Assembly: GCF_000020145.1 (NCBI RefSeq)
Contig: NC_010644.1
Location: 1,488,001-1,552,000, forward strand
Origin: Elusimicrobium minutum Pei191
GTDB taxonomy: Bacteria; Elusimicrobiota; Elusimicrobia; Elusimicrobiales; Elusimicrobiaceae
Reading direction: 5' to 3'
Length of the DNA: 64,000 bases
The notes beneath the pieces are model-generated. The model was not told the origin of the DNA. It saw only the letters and a program-made list of their open reading frames with translations, and did no database searches. Made by a program: the position numbers and the translations under genes. This document shows positions 53,033 through 63,928 of this stretch, in pieces; positions within the stretch are counted from its first letter, which is position 1, and the number at the start of each line of letters is the position of its first letter.

Positions 53033-53103
53033 GCGGGCGTGGTTCAATGGTAGAACATAACCTTGCCAAGGTTGAGACGAGGGTTCGATTCCCTTCGCCC
53101 GCT
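53033..53103 (+). tRNA. tRNA-Gly(GCC), integration site
   Basis: 71 nt plus: acceptor GCGGGCG/CGCCCGC, anticodon GCC in ACCTTGCCAAGGT, discriminator T. No CCA encoded. Its last 41 bases form the left att repeat of the mobile element; the gene remains intact because the element brings the same 3' end. Confidence 0.97.
53063..53103 (+). mobile_element. attL, 41-bp direct repeat
   Basis: Identical to 63723-63763. Runs from the anticodon loop of tRNA-Gly to its discriminator base, the standard target for tyrosine integrases. Confidence 0.95.
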
Positions 53104-53831: not shown

Positions 53832-54986
53832 CTACTTATCTGTATCTATATCAGACACTAAGTTAAGCGGTTGCCATGCAGCAAGCGTTTCACGTATATG
53901 CTCAACAGCTTTACTGATAGGTTCAGCCGCAATATTAGACTTGTGCCTGTCTACACTTTTTAAAATATAGCGCACTTTATTTGCATCGGCAAGCTTGCGG
54001 AGCAAACGTTTTATTTCGGGGCGTTTCATATCTCGCTCAAGTATTGAAAGCGCAAAGGAATTTAAAATATGTGACAAGGATTTTTTGGGACTTGCCGCAG
54101 CTATCTCATGCAAAAGTTGAGTGTCAGAGTAATCTTTATCCGCATATTGTTTTGGCACAGCATTTACCAAATTATTAAATTCACGGTTTAACAGTTCCTT
54201 TGCAAAATCAGCGTTGAAAACATCATGTATTGTAGGGTTTTTGACACCTATTTTCGCAAATTCGCCACGAATACTCTGTGTTTTAGTCAGCCTTACCTCT
54301 ATACGCATAAGTGCAATTTTTCTTTCAATCAGGGCTGTAATATAGTCGGGTATCGGTCTTTTATTATTACGGCATTCTTTTAGAATGTCATCAATTTTAT
54401 TATAAAGGCACAGCATACGGCTGTTATTGGCACTTGCAAGACCTTCACCACCACCATTATAACGGACATTTCCAATCTCCCGCCTATATTTAACTTCAGC
54501 ATTTTGCAAATAATTAAGAATGTTGGCGACGGTTACATTATGCGGTAGCAGTACATTTTTGGCATAGTCAATTCTTAAAATTGTACTGTCAAGAGACCAC
54601 CTTTTGTGTAGTTTAATCTTAATGGCCAAAAAATCTTCTTCTATTTTTTTGAGGATTTTCTCTTTGTCTGCTTCTGTGATTTCGTATAGATTGGTTCCCT
54701 TGTAGCATTTAGGCAAAGAAGCCTCATAAATAAAGTACCAGTCCCCTGCATAAATCACAGGCTTAAAAATGCCTTGTTTCCTGTCCGCTGCATACGTTTT
54801 AGATAAGCAGCCGCGCGAAGTGAAAGACTTGTCAGCAAGAACTTTAGGTATTAAGATTTTAATACTATCCACGCAAACACTCTTTTTGGCAAGTTCAGCG
54901 AGAGCCTCTGCACTTAACTCTTTAACGACAACGTCTTCTAAAAAGACGGGGAATTCTTTTATTATTTCATTCTCTTCATTCTTCAT
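53832..54986 (-). CDS. Gene II/X-like replication initiator
   Basis: 384 residues. The pattern IDYAKNVLLPHNVTVANIL, RREIGNVRYNGGGEGLASAN, RMLCLYNKIDDIL and ALMRIEVRLTKTQSIRG resembles phage/plasmid replication proteins of the gene II/X (Phage_CRI) type: a YNK-like segment followed by an LRxExRL-like segment. Such proteins nick the plus strand to start rolling-circle replication. The catalytic Tyr cannot be assigned by eye. An AAGGAG precedes the ATG. It gives the element the means to replicate after excision. Confidence 0.55.
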   Translation of the reverse strand: MKNEENEIIKEFPVFLEDVVVKELSAEALAELAKKSVCVDSIKILIPKVLADKSFTSRGCLSKTYAADRKQGIFKPVIYAGDWYFIYEASLPKCYKGTNLYEITEADKEKILKKIEEDFLAIKIKLHKRWSLDSTILRIDYAKNVLLPHNVTVANILNYLQNAEVKYRREIGNVRYNGGGEGLASANNSRMLCLYNKIDDILKECRNNKRPIPDYITALIERKIALMRIEVRLTKTQSIRGEFAKIGVKNPTIHDVFNADFAKELLNREFNNLVNAVPKQYADKDYSDTQLLHEIAAASPKKSLSHILNSFALSILERDMKRPEIKRLLRKLADANKVRYILKSVDRHKSNIAAEPISKAVEHIRETLAAWQPLNLVSDIDTDK

Positions 54987-55311: not shown

Positions 55312-55345
55312 AATTTTTATATCAATATATATAGTAATACTATAT
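55312..55345 (+). repeat. Palindromic element repeat, copy A (GTAATAC version)
   Basis: TATATCAATATATATAGTAA with palindrome TATAGTAATACTATA at 55330-55344. Not obviously at the end of a gene. Confidence 0.8.
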
Positions 55346-57182: not shown

Positions 57183-57950
57183 TTACAGAGCTGTTGTTCT
57201 TCTACAAATTGTTTTAATTATATTATTTGCTAAGGTTCTCACTTCTTCAAAGGCTAATGGTGGGTAGCATCTATCCTCATTAACCACGCTGAGGTATTTG
57301 GTGAGTCTGCTCTTTTCTTTAGAGCGGTTATAAGCAAAACCAACGCCAATCCTAAAAAGCTGACTGTTACGCTCACCCTCTCTAAAAATATTATTCTTTA
57401 CTTGCCTTAAAATCACTTCTAAGAGGTTTGCAGGTATGTCGGCTATGGTTATATCATTATGCATTTTATAAGCGGCTCCGCTGATGTGGATAGATGGCGG
57501 TATTATTACATAACCGCCGTTTGCCTTAAAATCTACGCCTTGAAGTAAGTTTATTTTTGAGGCAAGATATTGGTATTGCATCGGCAACTTAAAATAATAG
57601 TGAAAGCCATTGCCTGTTGATACTGTGTAGGTAGAGGGCAGGTTATATGGGGCAATAGATTTGTCGCCGTCTTTTCTAAAATCAATATCAACCACTACAA
57701 TATTGCTCGGCTTGCCTGTGGCTACGGCCCAGTTGCAGCTTTCTTTTATTGACGTTGTCCAATTTTTTATTTGGCTGATGTTGGAGGAGGCTATTTTGTG
57801 TCCGCCTTTAAACATCGGGTGTTTGGCAGGGCAATTGCAGCTTGCGTTAAAGCATGCGCATTTCTTTTCTTTTGGATACCACACAGGAAATACTTTAAAG
57901 CCACGCCTTAATTGTTTTGCAAGAACGGGGTTAATTGTTTCTATCGTCAT
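57183..57950 (-). CDS. Primase-polymerase (prim-pol domain)
   Basis: 255 residues. The archaeo-eukaryotic prim-pol fold: VVVDIDFRKDGD (DxD metal site, near residue 93), STGNGFHYYFKLP (His of the sTGxGxHxyf motif, near 118) and GVDFKANGGYVIIPPS. A C-terminal helical part starting REGERNSQLFRIG resembles the PriCT domain. No helicase is fused or adjacent. The unusual Cys-rich CACFNASCNCPAKHP near residue 31 is typical of the family's insertion. Together with Rep it forms a replication module. AGAGGAG precedes the ATG. Confidence 0.85.
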   Translation of the reverse strand: MTIETINPVLAKQLRRGFKVFPVWYPKEKKCACFNASCNCPAKHPMFKGGHKIASSNISQIKNWTTSIKESCNWAVATGKPSNIVVVDIDFRKDGDKSIAPYNLPSTYTVSTGNGFHYYFKLPMQYQYLASKINLLQGVDFKANGGYVIIPPSIHISGAAYKMHNDITIADIPANLLEVILRQVKNNIFREGERNSQLFRIGVGFAYNRSKEKSRLTKYLSVVNEDRCYPPLAFEEVRTLANNIIKTICRRTTAL

Positions 57951-58540
57951 AATCTCCTCTCAATTTTGATTAATTATATATCAGACATGAGGACGTGTAA
58001 ATGGTTATTAAGACGACAAAGCGCTTTTCATTCTTTCTGTTCTTTCTCTGGTATTGGTAGAAAATGGCTGCTGTATATTGCAAGCTGCACTTTCAGAATT
58101 TTTTAAATTTTCTGGTTTTACTGATGGTGGTTTATTGTGGCTAAAGTAAAAATGAGTTCGTTTGGTGTCGTGCTTATTTATTTAAAAAATATATATTTGC
58201 AAAACATCTTTAATATCTTTTTATAAGGGGTTTGCGCGTATTGATAGTAATTTATACGGCAGGCAACAAATAAATTAAAACAAGGGATTATAAGGAGGAA
58301 TAATATAATTTTAAGGATTAGTGGCAATGAAAACCATCATTTTTGACCAAAATATAATAAAAAACAAATTTTATATGTACATTTACGACATTTTATTGCT
58401 TTTTAATTATTTGACCACACCATTTTAGACATTTTTTATTTTATTTTTTATTTTACCCCTTGACTTTTTAATATTTTTAACCTATACTAACAATATAAGG
58501 TATCAAAAAATCGTATTTTTACCACCAAGGAAGAGTTAAT
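57951..58540. other. 590-bp gene-free region, possible origin
   Basis: No gene recognised. Very AT-rich from 58360 on, with GACATTTT repeated near 58388 and 58429. A strong AAGGAGG near 58291 has no start codon at the right distance; a 33-codon frame begins at 58327. Could hold a replication origin; unproven. Confidence 0.35.
58460..58488 (+). promoter_or_regulatory. Promoter of the beta-protein gene
   Basis: TTGACT, 17-bp spacer, TATACT. About 50 bp before the ATG. Confidence 0.75.
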
Positions 58541-59620
58541 ATGATAAATAGCACAACATATGTTCCCATACTTAAATGGAAGCAGGGCGAATATCAAGCC
58601 CTTTTAAAATTGGACGAACGAATTAAAGATAGAATCATCCCTTTAATCGAAATTACGCCTCCGGGTTATGACTATGAAACAAAAACCGCAAGGAATATTA
58701 ACGAGCATATATCTGACCTTGCCTCTCGTTTAAAAACAAAATGGGGCAGAGAGGCGTTAATTGACATTGACCCTATCGGATTAACTACGGACAAACCAGA
58801 ATATATATTAAAGATATTTGAAATGTATAGAGTTGGCGGGTGCACAGTAACCCCTGTAGTAAAGCTGGACGAAACTGCAGGAGCCTTGGCCGCATACACA
58901 GCAGTAATAAAAACAGACAAAAGGGGTGCTGTTCTCCGTATTAAGACAAATAATTTTGCAAGCCAATCAGAAATTGAGGCGAACATAACAAGGGTCTGCA
59001 AATCACTCGGCTTAGGGAAGCCAGATATTGACCTGGTTATTGATTTTGAAAAGGTTTCTATTGTGGTTAATGAAGAGTCCACTTTTGAAACTATGCAGGG
59101 ATTCTTTCATAAAATACCCGATATAAATTTTTGGCGTTCCTTTACGGTCGCAGGCAGCTCTATGGCAGAAAGCAACCAGGACATCAATCTTTATAAAAGG
59201 GCAGAGTGGTTATTCTATAAATATTGCGTAAGTAAGTTTAGAAACTCTTTCCGTCTACCTGCTTTTTCTGACTACGCCATAGGCACACCAAAGCACGCCG
59301 CTCCAAACTTGGATATGCGAACCTTTACTCCTATGGCAAAGGTTAGGTATACATTTGATTCTGAATGGTATTATTATACTGGAGCACCTGTTAAGGGTAG
59401 AAAATCGCAAGGGTTCGGGCAGTATAAAAAACTTTGCGAAGACCTTGTAAAGCGAGACGAGTATCGCGGTGAGGAGTTTTCTGCTGGGGATAAGTATATA
59501 AAAGAGTGCGCAGGTGGAAAGGGTACGGGAAATTTAAGTACTTGGATATGGGTTGCAACAAATCAGCACCTAACTAAGGTTGCATCTGACCTCTCCAATT
59601 TGTACGGTTTTTCAATATAG
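58541..59620 (+). CDS. Beta-family protein, defence candidate
   Basis: 359 residues. The opening YVPILKWKQGEYQALLKLDE, then RIIPLIEITPPG, is the signature of the phage/island beta-protein family; a related family (sce7725) is often found beside sce7726-type genes. The middle has alternating beta strands and helices (LIDIDPIGL, TPVVKLDE, IDLVIDFEKV), suggesting a TIM-barrel-like fold. Ends CAGGKGTGNLSTWIWVATNQHLTKV. No catalytic residue can be named. It overlaps the convergent sce7726 gene by 47 bp at the 3' end. Shine-Dalgarno AAGGAAGAG. Confidence 0.75.
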   Translation: MINSTTYVPILKWKQGEYQALLKLDERIKDRIIPLIEITPPGYDYETKTARNINEHISDLASRLKTKWGREALIDIDPIGLTTDKPEYILKIFEMYRVGGCTVTPVVKLDETAGALAAYTAVIKTDKRGAVLRIKTNNFASQSEIEANITRVCKSLGLGKPDIDLVIDFEKVSIVVNEESTFETMQGFFHKIPDINFWRSFTVAGSSMAESNQDINLYKRAEWLFYKYCVSKFRNSFRLPAFSDYAIGTPKHAAPNLDMRTFTPMAKVRYTFDSEWYYYTGAPVKGRKSQGFGQYKKLCEDLVKRDEYRGEEFSAGDKYIKECAGGKGTGNLSTWIWVATNQHLTKVASDLSNLYGFSI

Positions 59621-60167
59621 TTCTTGTCAGCGACTTTAATTTAGCAAGAGAAATATTTTCGGTAAGCATCTTATATAAAGTAGCCTTAGGATATCGCAAG
59701 TCTTTTGGGGCAAAACCTAATTGTTCTAATAAAGAAACGACTTCATCCTTCCATAATAGTTGGACTAATGATGAAGCGTCAATATTATAATTTACAAGGC
59801 CAGGTCTATATTTTTTTATAGATAAGACGTGCTTTTTATTAGGATAAGCGACTTTGATTTCCCACCAAGTTGGAACAAGAGCTATTGCCTTTTGTAAGTG
59901 CCTTTTGGCAACAACCAAAGTAACTCTGTCCAATATTTTGCTATATGCTTCGGCTTGCAAGGGTAGACGGGCTAGGGTGTCGACATCACTTTTGATTTCG
60001 TATCCATGCATTTTGCCGTTTATAACAGCAATGTCTACACGATGAAGACCCTGCATAACCCCCATCTCGTCAAGAATAAGGGTATCGTCATCATTTGAGT
60101 ATTTCTTTAAGTCGTTGTTATACAAAGCCTGCCTGATATCAACGTCTCTAAATAATGCTGTGCCCAT
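59574..60167 (-). CDS. sce7726-family PD-(D/E)XK protein
   Basis: 197 residues. RDVDIRQAL near the N-terminus and HRVDIAVINGKMHGYEIKSDVDTLARLPLQ match the sce7726 family. Glu34, Asp45 and Glu57-x-Lys59 give a PD-(D/E)XK nuclease site, and VPTWWEIKVAYP is the conserved Trp motif. A nuclease role is inferred. Convergent with the beta protein, 3' ends overlapping. GGGGAG precedes the ATG; a 39-codon ORF lies 50 bp upstream. Confidence 0.8.
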   Translation of the reverse strand: MGTALFRDVDIRQALYNNDLKKYSNDDDTLILDEMGVMQGLHRVDIAVINGKMHGYEIKSDVDTLARLPLQAEAYSKILDRVTLVVAKRHLQKAIALVPTWWEIKVAYPNKKHVLSIKKYRPGLVNYNIDASSLVQLLWKDEVVSLLEQLGFAPKDLRYPKATLYKMLTENISLAKLKSLTRTILKNRTNWRGQMQP

Positions 60168-60437: not shown

Positions 60438-60474
60438 ATAAAATTTAATATCAATATATATACTAATAGTATAG
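60438..60474 (+). repeat. Palindromic element repeat, copy B (CTAATAG version)
   Basis: ATAAAATTTAATATCAATAT and on, with TATACTAATAGTATA at 60459-60473. It lies 67 bp before the Abi gene. Confidence 0.85.
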
Positions 60475-60541: not shown

Positions 60542-61429
60542 ATGGAAACATACGAAATTACCGAGATTACAAGACGTGCGATTATAGACGAATTCATGTT
60601 AACTCCGCAACCATATCATGGGAAACTTGAAGAGGTTGACTTTCTAGAAAGATTGTATCCTCTTGCAAAAATGCCTTCTACTGATGGAAGGTTTTCAAAT
60701 GCAGGAGGAGATATTTATCAGCACAGAATAAATAATTTTGACTGGCCTGACGAATGGATTTGGAGCGATAGCCGTTTTAATCTTTTGCGTACATCTGACC
60801 AAGTATTTACTAGATTCATTTGTGAAATGTTGCATCCTGTAGTTAGGCATGAGAATGATGTTGCCCCATTGTTGGCAGCTTTTAATAGACAGCTTGCAAA
60901 TGATAATTGGGAAATATATAGAGAACGGGAAATATCCAAGCGACCAGTTTTTGCTGCTCGTAAAATAGGTAGCAAGCCTCCTCTTATTAAAAAGATTAAA
61001 AACATAGACCACGATTTTATTGCAGAGCAAATTAAAAAATCAGAAGAGAAGTTGGATAAAAACGATTTTGATGGAGCGATAACTAATGCTCGTTCTTTGG
61101 TTGAAGCTATCTTATGTTATATTGCAAAAAACTTAGATATAAAATTGCCCGAGTATGATGGGGATTTATTTAAATTATATAAAACAATAAGAAAAGACCT
61201 TAAACTAGAAATAACTGATGATATGGATAATATTTTAAAACAAATTATAACAGGGCTTTCGTCTATCATATCAGGGTTAAGTGGCTTAAGCAATAAAATG
61301 GGGGACAGGCATGTCAGGCAATATAAACCTAATAAACATCATGCGAAGCTAGCAGTAAATGTATCTCAAATTTTTTGCGAGTTTTTATTGGACAGCTATG
61401 AATATCAAAAGACGAGGCAAAAACAATAA
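60542..61429 (+). CDS. Abortive infection protein (Abi C-terminal domain)
   Basis: 295 residues. The C-terminal third matches the Abi_C family: helices from IAEQIKKSEEKLDKNDFDGAI through NARSLVEAILCYIAKNLDIKL, then SNKMGDRHVRQY and HHAKLAVNVSQIFCEFLLDSY. Such proteins protect populations from phage by stopping growth of infected cells; the trigger and target are not readable. The N-terminal 150 residues match nothing I know. TATAAT at about 60521 and AGAGGA precede the ATG. Its stop codon lies inside repeat copy C. Confidence 0.75.
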   Translation: METYEITEITRRAIIDEFMLTPQPYHGKLEEVDFLERLYPLAKMPSTDGRFSNAGGDIYQHRINNFDWPDEWIWSDSRFNLLRTSDQVFTRFICEMLHPVVRHENDVAPLLAAFNRQLANDNWEIYREREISKRPVFAARKIGSKPPLIKKIKNIDHDFIAEQIKKSEEKLDKNDFDGAITNARSLVEAILCYIAKNLDIKLPEYDGDLFKLYKTIRKDLKLEITDDMDNILKQIITGLSSIISGLSGLSNKMGDRHVRQYKPNKHHAKLAVNVSQIFCEFLLDSYEYQKTRQKQ

Positions 61430-61462
61430 AATTTAATATCAATATATATACTAATAGTATAG
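61419..61462 (+). repeat. Palindromic element repeat, copy C (CTAATAG version)
   Basis: Begins AAAAACAATAAAATTTAATA and ends TATAG. The TAA of the Abi gene (61427-61429) is part of it. A 43-bp span matches copy E with one mismatch. Confidence 0.85.
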
Positions 61463-61493: not shown

Positions 61494-62120
61494 ATGAAGA
61501 AATTAATTTTTATCTTGCCTATTATTTTTTTGGGTTGTGCTACCGCATCTACACAATCGGCGCGTGAACGCAATGAAAAGTGTTCAGAGTTTGAAGAGGT
61601 GGAAGTTTTCCAAACTTTCAATGACGGCGGACTTGCGTATGTTTGTGAACGAAAATCTTATGACAATTGTGCAATGGGAATGACTGTTGCCGTTTTAAAA
61701 GAAAGAGGAGAAGACCTCTGGGATAGCAAACGGATTAAAGCACCAAAGGGTAAATGCTTTGCATATGACGGCGTTTATAAATATATAAGCAAAGATGAGA
61801 GAGGTAGAACTGTTCCAATCGTTCGCTTAGATTATGCTTATGCCCCTTCATCTGAAAAAGAAGCTTTAGAAAGGGTGGAAGATTTGAGAGTCCATCTATA
61901 TCACGAATGTCTAGATGAAGCCAATGCAGAGTTTATTAATGAAAAAGAGACGAATACAAATAAATGTAAATGTTTTGCCGATTTAACTGTTGAAAAATTG
62001 ATAAATATTGCTTCTATGGATAATCAAACGCAGGACACAGTGGCAAAAACGTTTGGTAAAAGCTTCATAACAGAAGCAGAAAAAGCATGTGGCAAAATGC
62101 CGAAGAACATTAAAATTTAA
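61494..62120 (+). CDS. Lipoprotein, unknown function
   Basis: 208 residues from the ATG at 61494 (MKKLIFILPIIFLGCATAST), which has AAAGGAGGG just before it; an in-frame ATG at 61473 would translate the Shine-Dalgarno. Lipobox FLGC (Cys15). The mature protein has many Cys (EKCSEF, YVCERKSYDNCAMG, GKCFAYDG, HECLDEA, NKCKCFADL, KACGK), unusual for a lipoprotein in this genome segment and suggesting disulfides. Its TAA stop lies inside repeat copy D. Confidence 0.75.
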   Translation: MKKLIFILPIIFLGCATASTQSARERNEKCSEFEEVEVFQTFNDGGLAYVCERKSYDNCAMGMTVAVLKERGEDLWDSKRIKAPKGKCFAYDGVYKYISKDERGRTVPIVRLDYAYAPSSEKEALERVEDLRVHLYHECLDEANAEFINEKETNTNKCKCFADLTVEKLINIASMDNQTQDTVAKTFGKSFITEAEKACGKMPKNIKI

Positions 62121-62146
62121 TATCAATATATATAGTAATACTATAG
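62110..62146 (+). repeat. Palindromic element repeat, copy D (GTAATAC version)
   Basis: TAAAATTTAATATCAATATA and on, with TATAGTAATACTATA at 62131-62145. Overlaps the stop of the lipoprotein gene. Confidence 0.85.
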
Positions 62147-62286: not shown

Positions 62287-62329
62287 TATACTATTAGTAT
62301 ATATATTGGTATTAAATTTTATTGTTTTT
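62287..62329 (-). repeat. Palindromic element repeat, copy E, inverted
   Basis: Minus-strand copy beginning AAAAACAATAAAATTTAATA. It sits at the 3' end of the ribbon-helix-helix gene, the same position relative to the gene as copies C and D. Confidence 0.85.
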
Positions 62330-62492
62330 ATTTAACCCTTAGATATTGCTCTAACGCCTTCCTAATAACCCAAGATACACTCCTATCTTCTTTTGCAGTA
62401 TGAGCATTGAGTGCTTTAAGCAGCTTTTCATTAAGAACAAAGCTGACTGTTATATTATTATTTTCTGAACTTTCTTTAGTTGTTTTTGCCAT
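62328..62492 (-). CDS. Ribbon-helix-helix DNA-binding protein
   Basis: 54 residues from the ATG at 62492 (MAKTTKESSENNNITVSFVLN). The segment ITVSFVLNEKLLKALNAHTAKEDRSVSWVIRKALEQYL (in pieces) is a CopG/Arc ribbon-helix-helix: a beta strand and two helices, acting as a dimer on palindromic DNA. Divergent from the integrase by 99 bp, so a likely regulator of excision. It may also bind the element palindromes. The promoter TGCTATAAT ends 6 nt before the ATG: leaderless. Confidence 0.8.
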   Translation of the reverse strand: MAKTTKESSENNNITVSFVLNEKLLKALNAHTAKEDRSVSWVIRKALEQYLRVK

Positions 62493-62498
62493 ATATTT

Positions 62499-62507
62499 AT
62501 TATAGCA
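62499..62507 (-). promoter_or_regulatory. Extended -10 promoter of the RHH gene, leaderless
   Basis: TGCTATAAT (hexamer 62499-62504); gap of 6 nt to the ATG. Confidence 0.65.
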
Positions 62508-62556
62508 CAAAAGATAATGATAGATATTGAAAGCTATTTACTAATAGTTATCAATA

Positions 62557-62591: not shown

Positions 62592-63605
62592 ATGGGCGTT
62601 TTTGAAACAGAAAACGGAACATGGGGTATTGATTACAGATATAAAAGCAAGCGTTATAAAAGAGTTGTTGCTATAACCAGAAAGCTTGCCTTAGACATTG
62701 AGCGTAAAATACTAACAGATATTAAAGAAGGCAAGTTTTTCCCTGATTTAGATAAGCAAGATGTTACATTCGCCGAAATAGCAGAGAGATATTGGTCTCT
62801 TCACGGCAGAAAAACTAGAGGCGCACAAACTTTTAAATATACCTTTGACATAATTCTTTCACGTTTCGGACATATGAAAGTTGCCGATATAACGACAGAA
62901 GACATACAAAAATTTTATAATGACACTTGGGAAAGGACATCTCCTTCAACTGCAAACCGCCACTTTTCTTTATTCCGCGCCATAATTAATAAAGCATTAA
63001 ACCTCAAATTATATAAAGGACAGAATCCTTGTATTGGAGTAGTGCGACAACGTGACAATCCACCCAGAGACAAATATTTTACAAAGGAAGACATCAAAAG
63101 CCTTTTAGTAACGGCAGAGAACAGGCTTAAACCTATTATTGCTTTTGCAGTATTAACGGGCTGTCGTAAAATGGAAATCCTTAATCTTCGCTGGAAAGAT
63201 GTAGATTTTTACGGCGGTATTATTAGAATTACAATGTCTAAGTCAGGCAAACCGAGAGAAATCCCATTAGCAAACGATTTAAGACCAATACTACTAGCCA
63301 TGCATACTAATCCACAAGATAAAGTATTTAACATTACAGTGCCCGCATTAAAATATTCTTTTAATAAACTGCTAAAGAAACTTGGCTTTGAAGGCTACTG
63401 TTTCCACACCTGCCGTCATACATTTGCCAGTCTGTATATGCAAAACGATGGCAATATTACCGATTTACAGCGTATATTAGGCCATGCAACAATAGAGCTA
63501 ACCATGCGATATTCACATTTTAGCCCCCAATACATTCAGCAAACCATTAAAGTTATGGATGGAATTATTGCTTTATCTGAAAATAAGCTTTTAGAGCTAA
63601 CCTAA
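62592..63605 (+). CDS. Tyrosine integrase
   Basis: 337 residues. An N-terminal arm-binding domain (WGIDYRYKSKRYKRV), a SAM-like core-binding domain (about 60-150) and the catalytic domain with Arg in TGCRKMEIL, Lys in SKSGKPREIPL, HTCRH (His and Arg), LGHATIELT (His) and the nucleophile Tyr in MRYSHFS. Complete and probably active. It integrates at tRNA-Gly: the right att repeat begins 117 bp after its stop. AGAGGT precedes the ATG. Confidence 0.95.
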   Translation: MGVFETENGTWGIDYRYKSKRYKRVVAITRKLALDIERKILTDIKEGKFFPDLDKQDVTFAEIAERYWSLHGRKTRGAQTFKYTFDIILSRFGHMKVADITTEDIQKFYNDTWERTSPSTANRHFSLFRAIINKALNLKLYKGQNPCIGVVRQRDNPPRDKYFTKEDIKSLLVTAENRLKPIIAFAVLTGCRKMEILNLRWKDVDFYGGIIRITMSKSGKPREIPLANDLRPILLAMHTNPQDKVFNITVPALKYSFNKLLKKLGFEGYCFHTCRHTFASLYMQNDGNITDLQRILGHATIELTMRYSHFSPQYIQQTIKVMDGIIALSENKLLELT

Positions 63606-63722: not shown

Positions 63723-63763
63723 TTGCCAAGGTTGAGACGAGGGTTCGATTCCCTTCGCCCGCT
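63723..63763 (+). mobile_element. attR, 41-bp direct repeat
   Basis: Identical to the tRNA-Gly 3' portion at 53063-53103. The 5' half of the tRNA is absent here. Confidence 0.95.
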
Positions 63764-63808: not shown

Positions 63809-63928
63809 ACTATCAGGTATGTTCACTAATCGCCGCAATATATTAAACAAACAACAAAAGTTATGGATGGCGTTATTAGTTTCCCAGAGGGTAGCAACAT
63901 CCCCCTTTTAGAAAATCCGCCGAAATAA
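63809..63928 (+). pseudogene. Tail of a second tyrosine integrase
   Basis: Translates TIRYVH, stop, SPQYIKQTTKVMDGVISFPEG and on to NIPLLENPPK. The complete integrase ends TMRYSHFSPQYIQQTIKVMDG, so 18 of 23 aligned positions agree from the catalytic Tyr region onward. One in-frame TAA and no upstream part: a relic of an older related element. Confidence 0.75.

Follow-up and report, generated by a model that had tools for sequence, protein, structure and literature searches.

Within a 64,000-nucleotide stretch of the Elusimicrobium minutum Pei191 genome, referred to here as the window, two genes face each other with overlapping 3' ends. One encodes a beta-family protein and the other an sce7726-family PD-(D/E)XK protein (Table 1). 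We found that convergent orientation is the rule for beta-sce7726 pairs, and that the two genes are co-inherited and travel on mobile elements as a cassette of two genes. Their convergent overlap is not due to chance, as is evident from its recurrence, its fixed codon register, its dual-coding constraint and the low ratio of nonsynonymous to synonymous substitution rates (dN/dS) of the two genes. The pair is already known in kind, because phage P4 has a beta and a cII protein from these two families, encoded by genes that are likewise convergent. With slightly better than even confidence, we interpret the window pair as a minimal form, with two genes only, that is related to the beta-cII core of P4 gop-beta-cII and in which a nuclease effector is controlled by the triosephosphate isomerase (TIM)-barrel protein beta.

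Conserved arrangement and co-inheritance of the gene pair

A first-pass annotation of the window, made from its sequence alone, had described two facing genes whose 3' ends overlap by 47 bp, and this was confirmed at 59574-59620. Of the family labels that it proposed, beta (PF14350 Beta_protein, 332.5 bits against a gathering cut-off of 27, 4.9e-99, model positions 1-341 of 342) and sce7726 (NF033832, 168.6 bits against a curated cut-off of 70, 1.3e-49, full-length) were upheld, whereas sce7725 was ruled out as an identity for the beta protein, as a search at E<=0.1 gave no match.

Further loci were collected from GTDB genomes and viral contigs by similarity to the sce7726 branch of the window, not to beta, with automatic start codons and gene calls in the fetched loci. 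In 77 of the 80 genome loci a convergent beta adjoins sce7726, and a same-strand pair occurs in none. Two of the remaining three lie on contigs that end within 190 bp, and one, from Xenorhabdus (L146), truly lacks beta. Seventy-three of the 77 convergent pairs overlap, and 72 of these do so by a length that equals 2 modulo 3. The searches of viral contigs used alignments, as single-protein scans there found almost nothing, and revealed a convergent beta at 76 of 80 loci; three of the other contigs stop at sce7726 and the fourth carries the same Xenorhabdus sequence. This survey of sce7726 neighbourhoods bears out the earlier proposal that sce7726 and beta are recurrent neighbours. It reverses the accompanying statement that their tail-to-tail orientation is unusual: this arrangement is the norm and hardly ever varies. 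Across genomes and plasmid or phage records, the hosts included Elusimicrobiota, Pseudomonadota, Bacillota, Actinomycetota, Myxococcota, Gastranaerophilales, Verrucomicrobia, Sumerlaeota, Hydrogenedentota, Nitrospirae, Acidobacteria, Brocadiaceae and the archaeon Methanosuratincola.

Approached from the beta side, six of 199 Elusimicrobiota genomes contained beta, five of them with a convergent sce7726. Among 295 Enterobacteriaceae genomes beta was found in 16, with a convergent sce7726 in ten (nine overlapping) and none in six. More distant sce7726 members have no beta partner.

The beta and sce7726 genes seem to be passed on together as a single unit, and the identity matrices of the two families are correlated (Mantel r 0.85; none of 2000 permutations as high). 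The nearest relative of the window pair, in an Elusimicrobiota metagenome-assembled genome (L109), shares with the surrounding element of the window only the 2.4-kb stretch that holds both genes with the regions upstream of them. It sits near a tRNA-Leu among unrelated neighbours, and the pair has moved there with neither integrase nor Rep genes. Comparison with this cassette gave a dN/dS of 0.10 for beta and 0.19 for sce7726; therefore, both genes are under purifying selection.

A locked register in the overlap

In 92 of the 112 non-redundant pairs that could be mapped, the codon for the conserved W191 of sce7726 lies exactly 30 bp from the opposite-strand codon for the conserved H343 of beta. 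The distance was 69 bp in 13 enterobacterial-type pairs, and 33, 35, 70, 72 or 74 bp in the rest. Despite the fixed register the stop codons vary freely, with overlaps of 23-140 bp. In the 30-bp register, sce7726 'Trp-Arg' lies opposite beta 'Leu-Ala/Ser', and the third base of the Arg codon is also the second base of the beta Leu codon. As a consequence, 89 of the 92 pairs have A as the last base of this Arg codon (CGA in 65, AGA in 24). At loci with more than 58% GC this holds for 45 of 45, versus 25% of the Arg codons elsewhere in the same genes. The homologue in phage Mx4, which has no beta partner, keeps the Trp-Arg with the codon AGG (one case). At 80-90% protein identity, synonymous differences were 0.26 in the overlap versus 0.45 outside it for sce7726, and 0.08 versus 0.36 for beta, as computed on pairs of related sequences whose counts are not independent. 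Judged by these codon patterns, the overlap is dual-coded, with synonymous sites constrained in both genes. This is an unusually clear conserved antiparallel coding overlap in cellular genomes, with a base-exact register and an Arg codon choice that is kept by the opposite strand.

Antisense control of expression via the overlap, which the first-pass annotation had suggested, is conjectural, and no terminator or regulatory/antisense element was found within the 47 bp of the window. Leaving function aside, we consider it an even call whether the overlap is a frozen accident, that is, an ancient arrangement without regulatory role that is kept since each tail is needed as protein. Dual coding accounts for the constraint, the terminator search of the window overlap came up empty, and lineages without overlap or in other registers are still convergent, as exemplified by the 27-bp gap in P4. 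However, P4, L157 and L235 overlap slightly or not at all and are nevertheless convergent, so another factor may favour the orientation.

Relation to gop-beta-cII and PD-lambda-2

Phage P4 (NC_001609) encodes gop (247-648, +), beta (651-1718, +) and cII (1746-2540, -). RefSeq names the latter two products 'beta family protein' and 'sce7726 family protein', and the PADLOC models 'beta' and 'cll' are the P4 beta and cII proteins (8e-188 and 3e-113). Because the families are the same and these models match the P4 proteins, the window pair corresponds to P4 beta and cII. In both P4 and the window, a PF14350 beta and a cII of the sce7726 family are adjacent and convergent on a mobile element. However, the 47-bp overlap of the window contrasts with the gap in P4, and the sce7726 protein has 197 residues whereas P4 cII has 264. 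While the window sce7726 protein matches 'cll' at 4e-33, the beta protein is far nearer PD-Lambda-2_C (PDLC03983, 1.3e-45) than the P4 'beta' model, which it matches weakly (3e-7). No gop is present upstream of the window beta: no open reading frame of at least 70 aa ends within 250 bp, and only small ones lie in 57950-58541. We also considered Gop as a HigB-like toxin and rejected this by eye, as P4 Gop (133 residues) has two hydrophobic N-terminal stretches.

The bare two-gene form occurs in the window, in E. coli prophage Rac-SA53 and in 93 of 5426 complete E. coli genomes; P4-type gop-beta-cII occurs in 39 genomes. Like the window pair, the Rac-SA53/E. coli pair consists of two genes only, in convergent orientation, with a 41-bp overlap and the same 30-bp register, although it comes from a different host phylum and is 42% (sce7726) and 27% (beta) identical to it.

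The window shares the beta-type third component (C) of PD-lambda-2 (Vassallo 2022). Canonical enterobacterial PD-lambda-2 loci have no sce7726, whereas some PD-lambda-2-like operons, in Sinorhizobium, Agrobacterium and many Sphingomonadales, end with a convergent overlapping sce7726. On Sinorhizobium and Agrobacterium plasmids this takes a four-gene form, with a HigB-like/DUF6932-type gene, an Xre-peptidase, beta and a convergent sce7726 (47-bp overlap). An Xre-peptidase of the PD-lambda-2_B type lies tightly upstream of beta in 36 of the 107 non-redundant pairs with enough upstream sequence, mostly from Alphaproteobacteria, and not in the other 71. Upstream of the window beta we found neither a HigB-like/DUF6932 gene nor an Xre-peptidase. 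The 36 loci (L019, L020, L021 and L120-L188) are PD-lambda-2-like operons whose last gene is a convergent, overlapping sce7726; DUF6932 (PF22014) is a common flanking family among them and may be the first gene. The sce7726 nuclease often accompanies PD-lambda-2-like operons, yet it is not counted as a component.

Predicted structures of the two proteins

The window sce7726 protein resembles its family (NF033832) over its full length, above the cut-off, and in its motif E-D-ExK with QxxxY; it differs from members in Myxococcus phage Mx4 and a Paenibacillus plasmid, which have no beta partner. The residues E34, D45, E57 and K59 had been named correctly in the first-pass annotation and, together with Q71xxxY75, are invariant in 120 of 120 aligned relatives. 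In the predicted model (predicted local distance difference test score, pLDDT, 92.8), residues 1-126 form a nuclease fold and the C-terminal part is helical. The fold matches were 3dnx (Z 9.7, 128 aligned residues, 4.5 A), PaqCI (Z 8.2) and NucS/EndoMS (Z 7.6). The nearest solved fold, 3dnx, has no assigned function, and other matches are repair nucleases. The protein thereby has both the catalytic motif and the predicted fold of the PD-(D/E)XK superfamily, in agreement with its earlier assignment, and is a putative metal-dependent DNA nuclease effector.

The beta model (pLDDT 93.9) is a (beta/alpha)8 barrel by fold matching, and the invariant polar residues of the protein include D168, R220, D244, Y245 and H343. 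A specific enzyme function is unsupported, because numerous TIM barrels score about equally well, at Z 11-13 (among them TGT, tryptophan synthase alpha, aldolase and a designed barrel), and the top Foldseek match is KDO8P synthase. No sequence relatives were found in the Protein Data Bank for either protein.

Possible function of the pair

The defence role proposed in the first-pass annotation is plausible, because P4 gop-beta-cII makes E. coli resist both lambda and P1 (PMC9122126), and PD-lambda-2C, a beta relative, is required for defence against lambda-vir (PMC9519451). In the mechanism that we propose, sce7726 would act as a metal-dependent DNA nuclease effector, while beta would be a ligand- or protein-binding barrel that controls sce7726 and is needed for its action. 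Upon infection the pair would cut phage DNA or kill the host cell. In some lineages beta might also serve a toxin module that has joined the pair, which would be Gop in P4 and DUF6932 with Xre-peptidase in PD-lambda-2-like operons, and the interlocked 3' ends would hold the two genes together. A fuller version is tentative and, in our judgement, somewhat short of an even chance. It states that beta and sce7726 are a self-contained two-gene defence system, of which gop-beta-cII and many PD-lambda-2-like operons represent the core plus a toxin module, and that the antisense coding overlap, through which the conserved C-termini of the two proteins constrain each other, has held the genes together across many bacterial phyla and is shared with archaea. 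Two phage-defence systems that were published separately would then have a core in common.

Several points weigh against the proposed mechanism. The window lacks Gop, which is the proven P4 toxin. The six of 16 enterobacterial beta loci without sce7726 are canonical PD-lambda-2, so beta can work without the nuclease. Finally, we found no experiment on the bare pair in the open-access literature, and the published systems contain further genes.

The tight linkage and mobility of the two genes would also suit a toxin-antitoxin pair, with sce7726 as a constitutively toxic nuclease and beta as its antitoxin, in the way that beta neutralises Gop in P4, where gop is toxic without beta (PMC9122126). 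We consider this unlikely. Five loci contain an intact nuclease motif with a missing or broken beta: Xenorhabdus L146 and L151, Acinetobacter plasmids (L022, with IS30 at the 5' end), Paracoccus (L028, with IS3) and Brevundimonas (L160). In these the nuclease seems to have outlasted beta, which argues that it would not be lethal on its own. In PD-lambda-2, moreover, neutralisation of the toxin does not require the beta protein (PMC9519451), and the genes of the pair are convergent rather than operonic, unlike usual toxin-antitoxin pairs. From the same five loci we infer that beta is a licensing or sensing partner of sce7726. In L151, from Xenorhabdus vietnamensis, beta is truncated and breaks off close to VAQHTSL, a stretch that is also found in the adjacent sce7726 protein; a rearrangement at the overlap is possible.

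A slightly less probable alternative still is that the pair is not anti-phage at all and processes or protects the DNA of its mobile element, in replication, repair or the exclusion of a rival element. Its location in an element with integrase, Rep and primase genes, and in prophages and plasmids, would agree with this, as would the unassigned function of 3dnx and the repair nucleases among the other fold matches. However, the form with three genes in P4 gives protection from phages, although these genes are 'non-essential' for P4 itself (PMC9122126), and the L109 pair has moved without integrase or Rep genes.

Genomic setting

The pair sits in a 10.7-kb integrase element that is flanked by the 3' portion of a tRNA-Gly gene on one side and a 41-bp copy of it on the other; across the whole genome, a 30-base core of the repeat is present at just two sites. 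Past attR lie core genes, such as methionyl-tRNA synthetase (identified by eye).

Table 1. Features of the beta-sce7726 pair and its element; positions are those of the window.
Feature	Position	Strand	Remarks
Beta-family protein gene	58541-59620	+	359 aa; PF14350; PADLOC PD-Lambda-2_C and P4 'beta'; predicted (beta/alpha)8 TIM barrel
sce7726-family PD-(D/E)XK protein gene	59574-60167	-	197 aa; NF033832; PADLOC 'cll' = P4 cII; E34 D45 E57 K59 Q71 Y75 conserved
Antisense coding overlap	59574-59620		47 bp, both 3' ends
sce7726 Trp191 codon; beta His343 codon	59597-59595; 59567-59569		30 bp apart
Candidate sigma-70 promoter of beta	58460-58488	+	TTGACT-17-TATACT; consensus match only
Stretch common to Elusimicrobiota L109	57986-60378		2.4 kb; two genes and upstream regions; 91% DNA identity
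attL, 3' part of tRNA-Gly	53063-53103	+	41-bp exact repeat
Replication protein with G2P (Phage_CRI) domain	53832-54986	-	
Prim-Pol primase	57183-57950	-	
AbiJ_NTD3 + Abi_C protein	60542-61429	+	next-door gene, abortive-infection type; outside shared cassette; absent from L109
Tyrosine integrase of the element	62592-63605	+	
attR, copy of tRNA-Gly 3' part	63723-63763	+	41 bp
28-nt elements	55317-55344, 60446-60473, 61434-61461, 62118-62145	+	
28-nt element	62287-62314	-	

The neighbouring AbiJ_NTD3 + Abi_C gene is cargo and a probable abortive-infection gene. Among 115 flanking proteins of the other loci we found Gabija-, Septu- and further defence-type matches, which are raw occurrences with no background rate for comparison.

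Five near-identical 28-nt elements that contain a palindrome (ATACTAATAGTAT type) are confined, genome-wide, to this element. They precede the AbiJ-like gene, a lipoprotein-like gene and a ribbon-helix-helix gene (62328-62510), with none at the beta-sce7726 pair, and may be operators of the ribbon-helix-helix regulator. Just outside attR, a 50-bp segment (63833-63882) resembles the 3' end of the integrase gene (63525-63574) at 78% identity and is perhaps a remnant of an earlier element.
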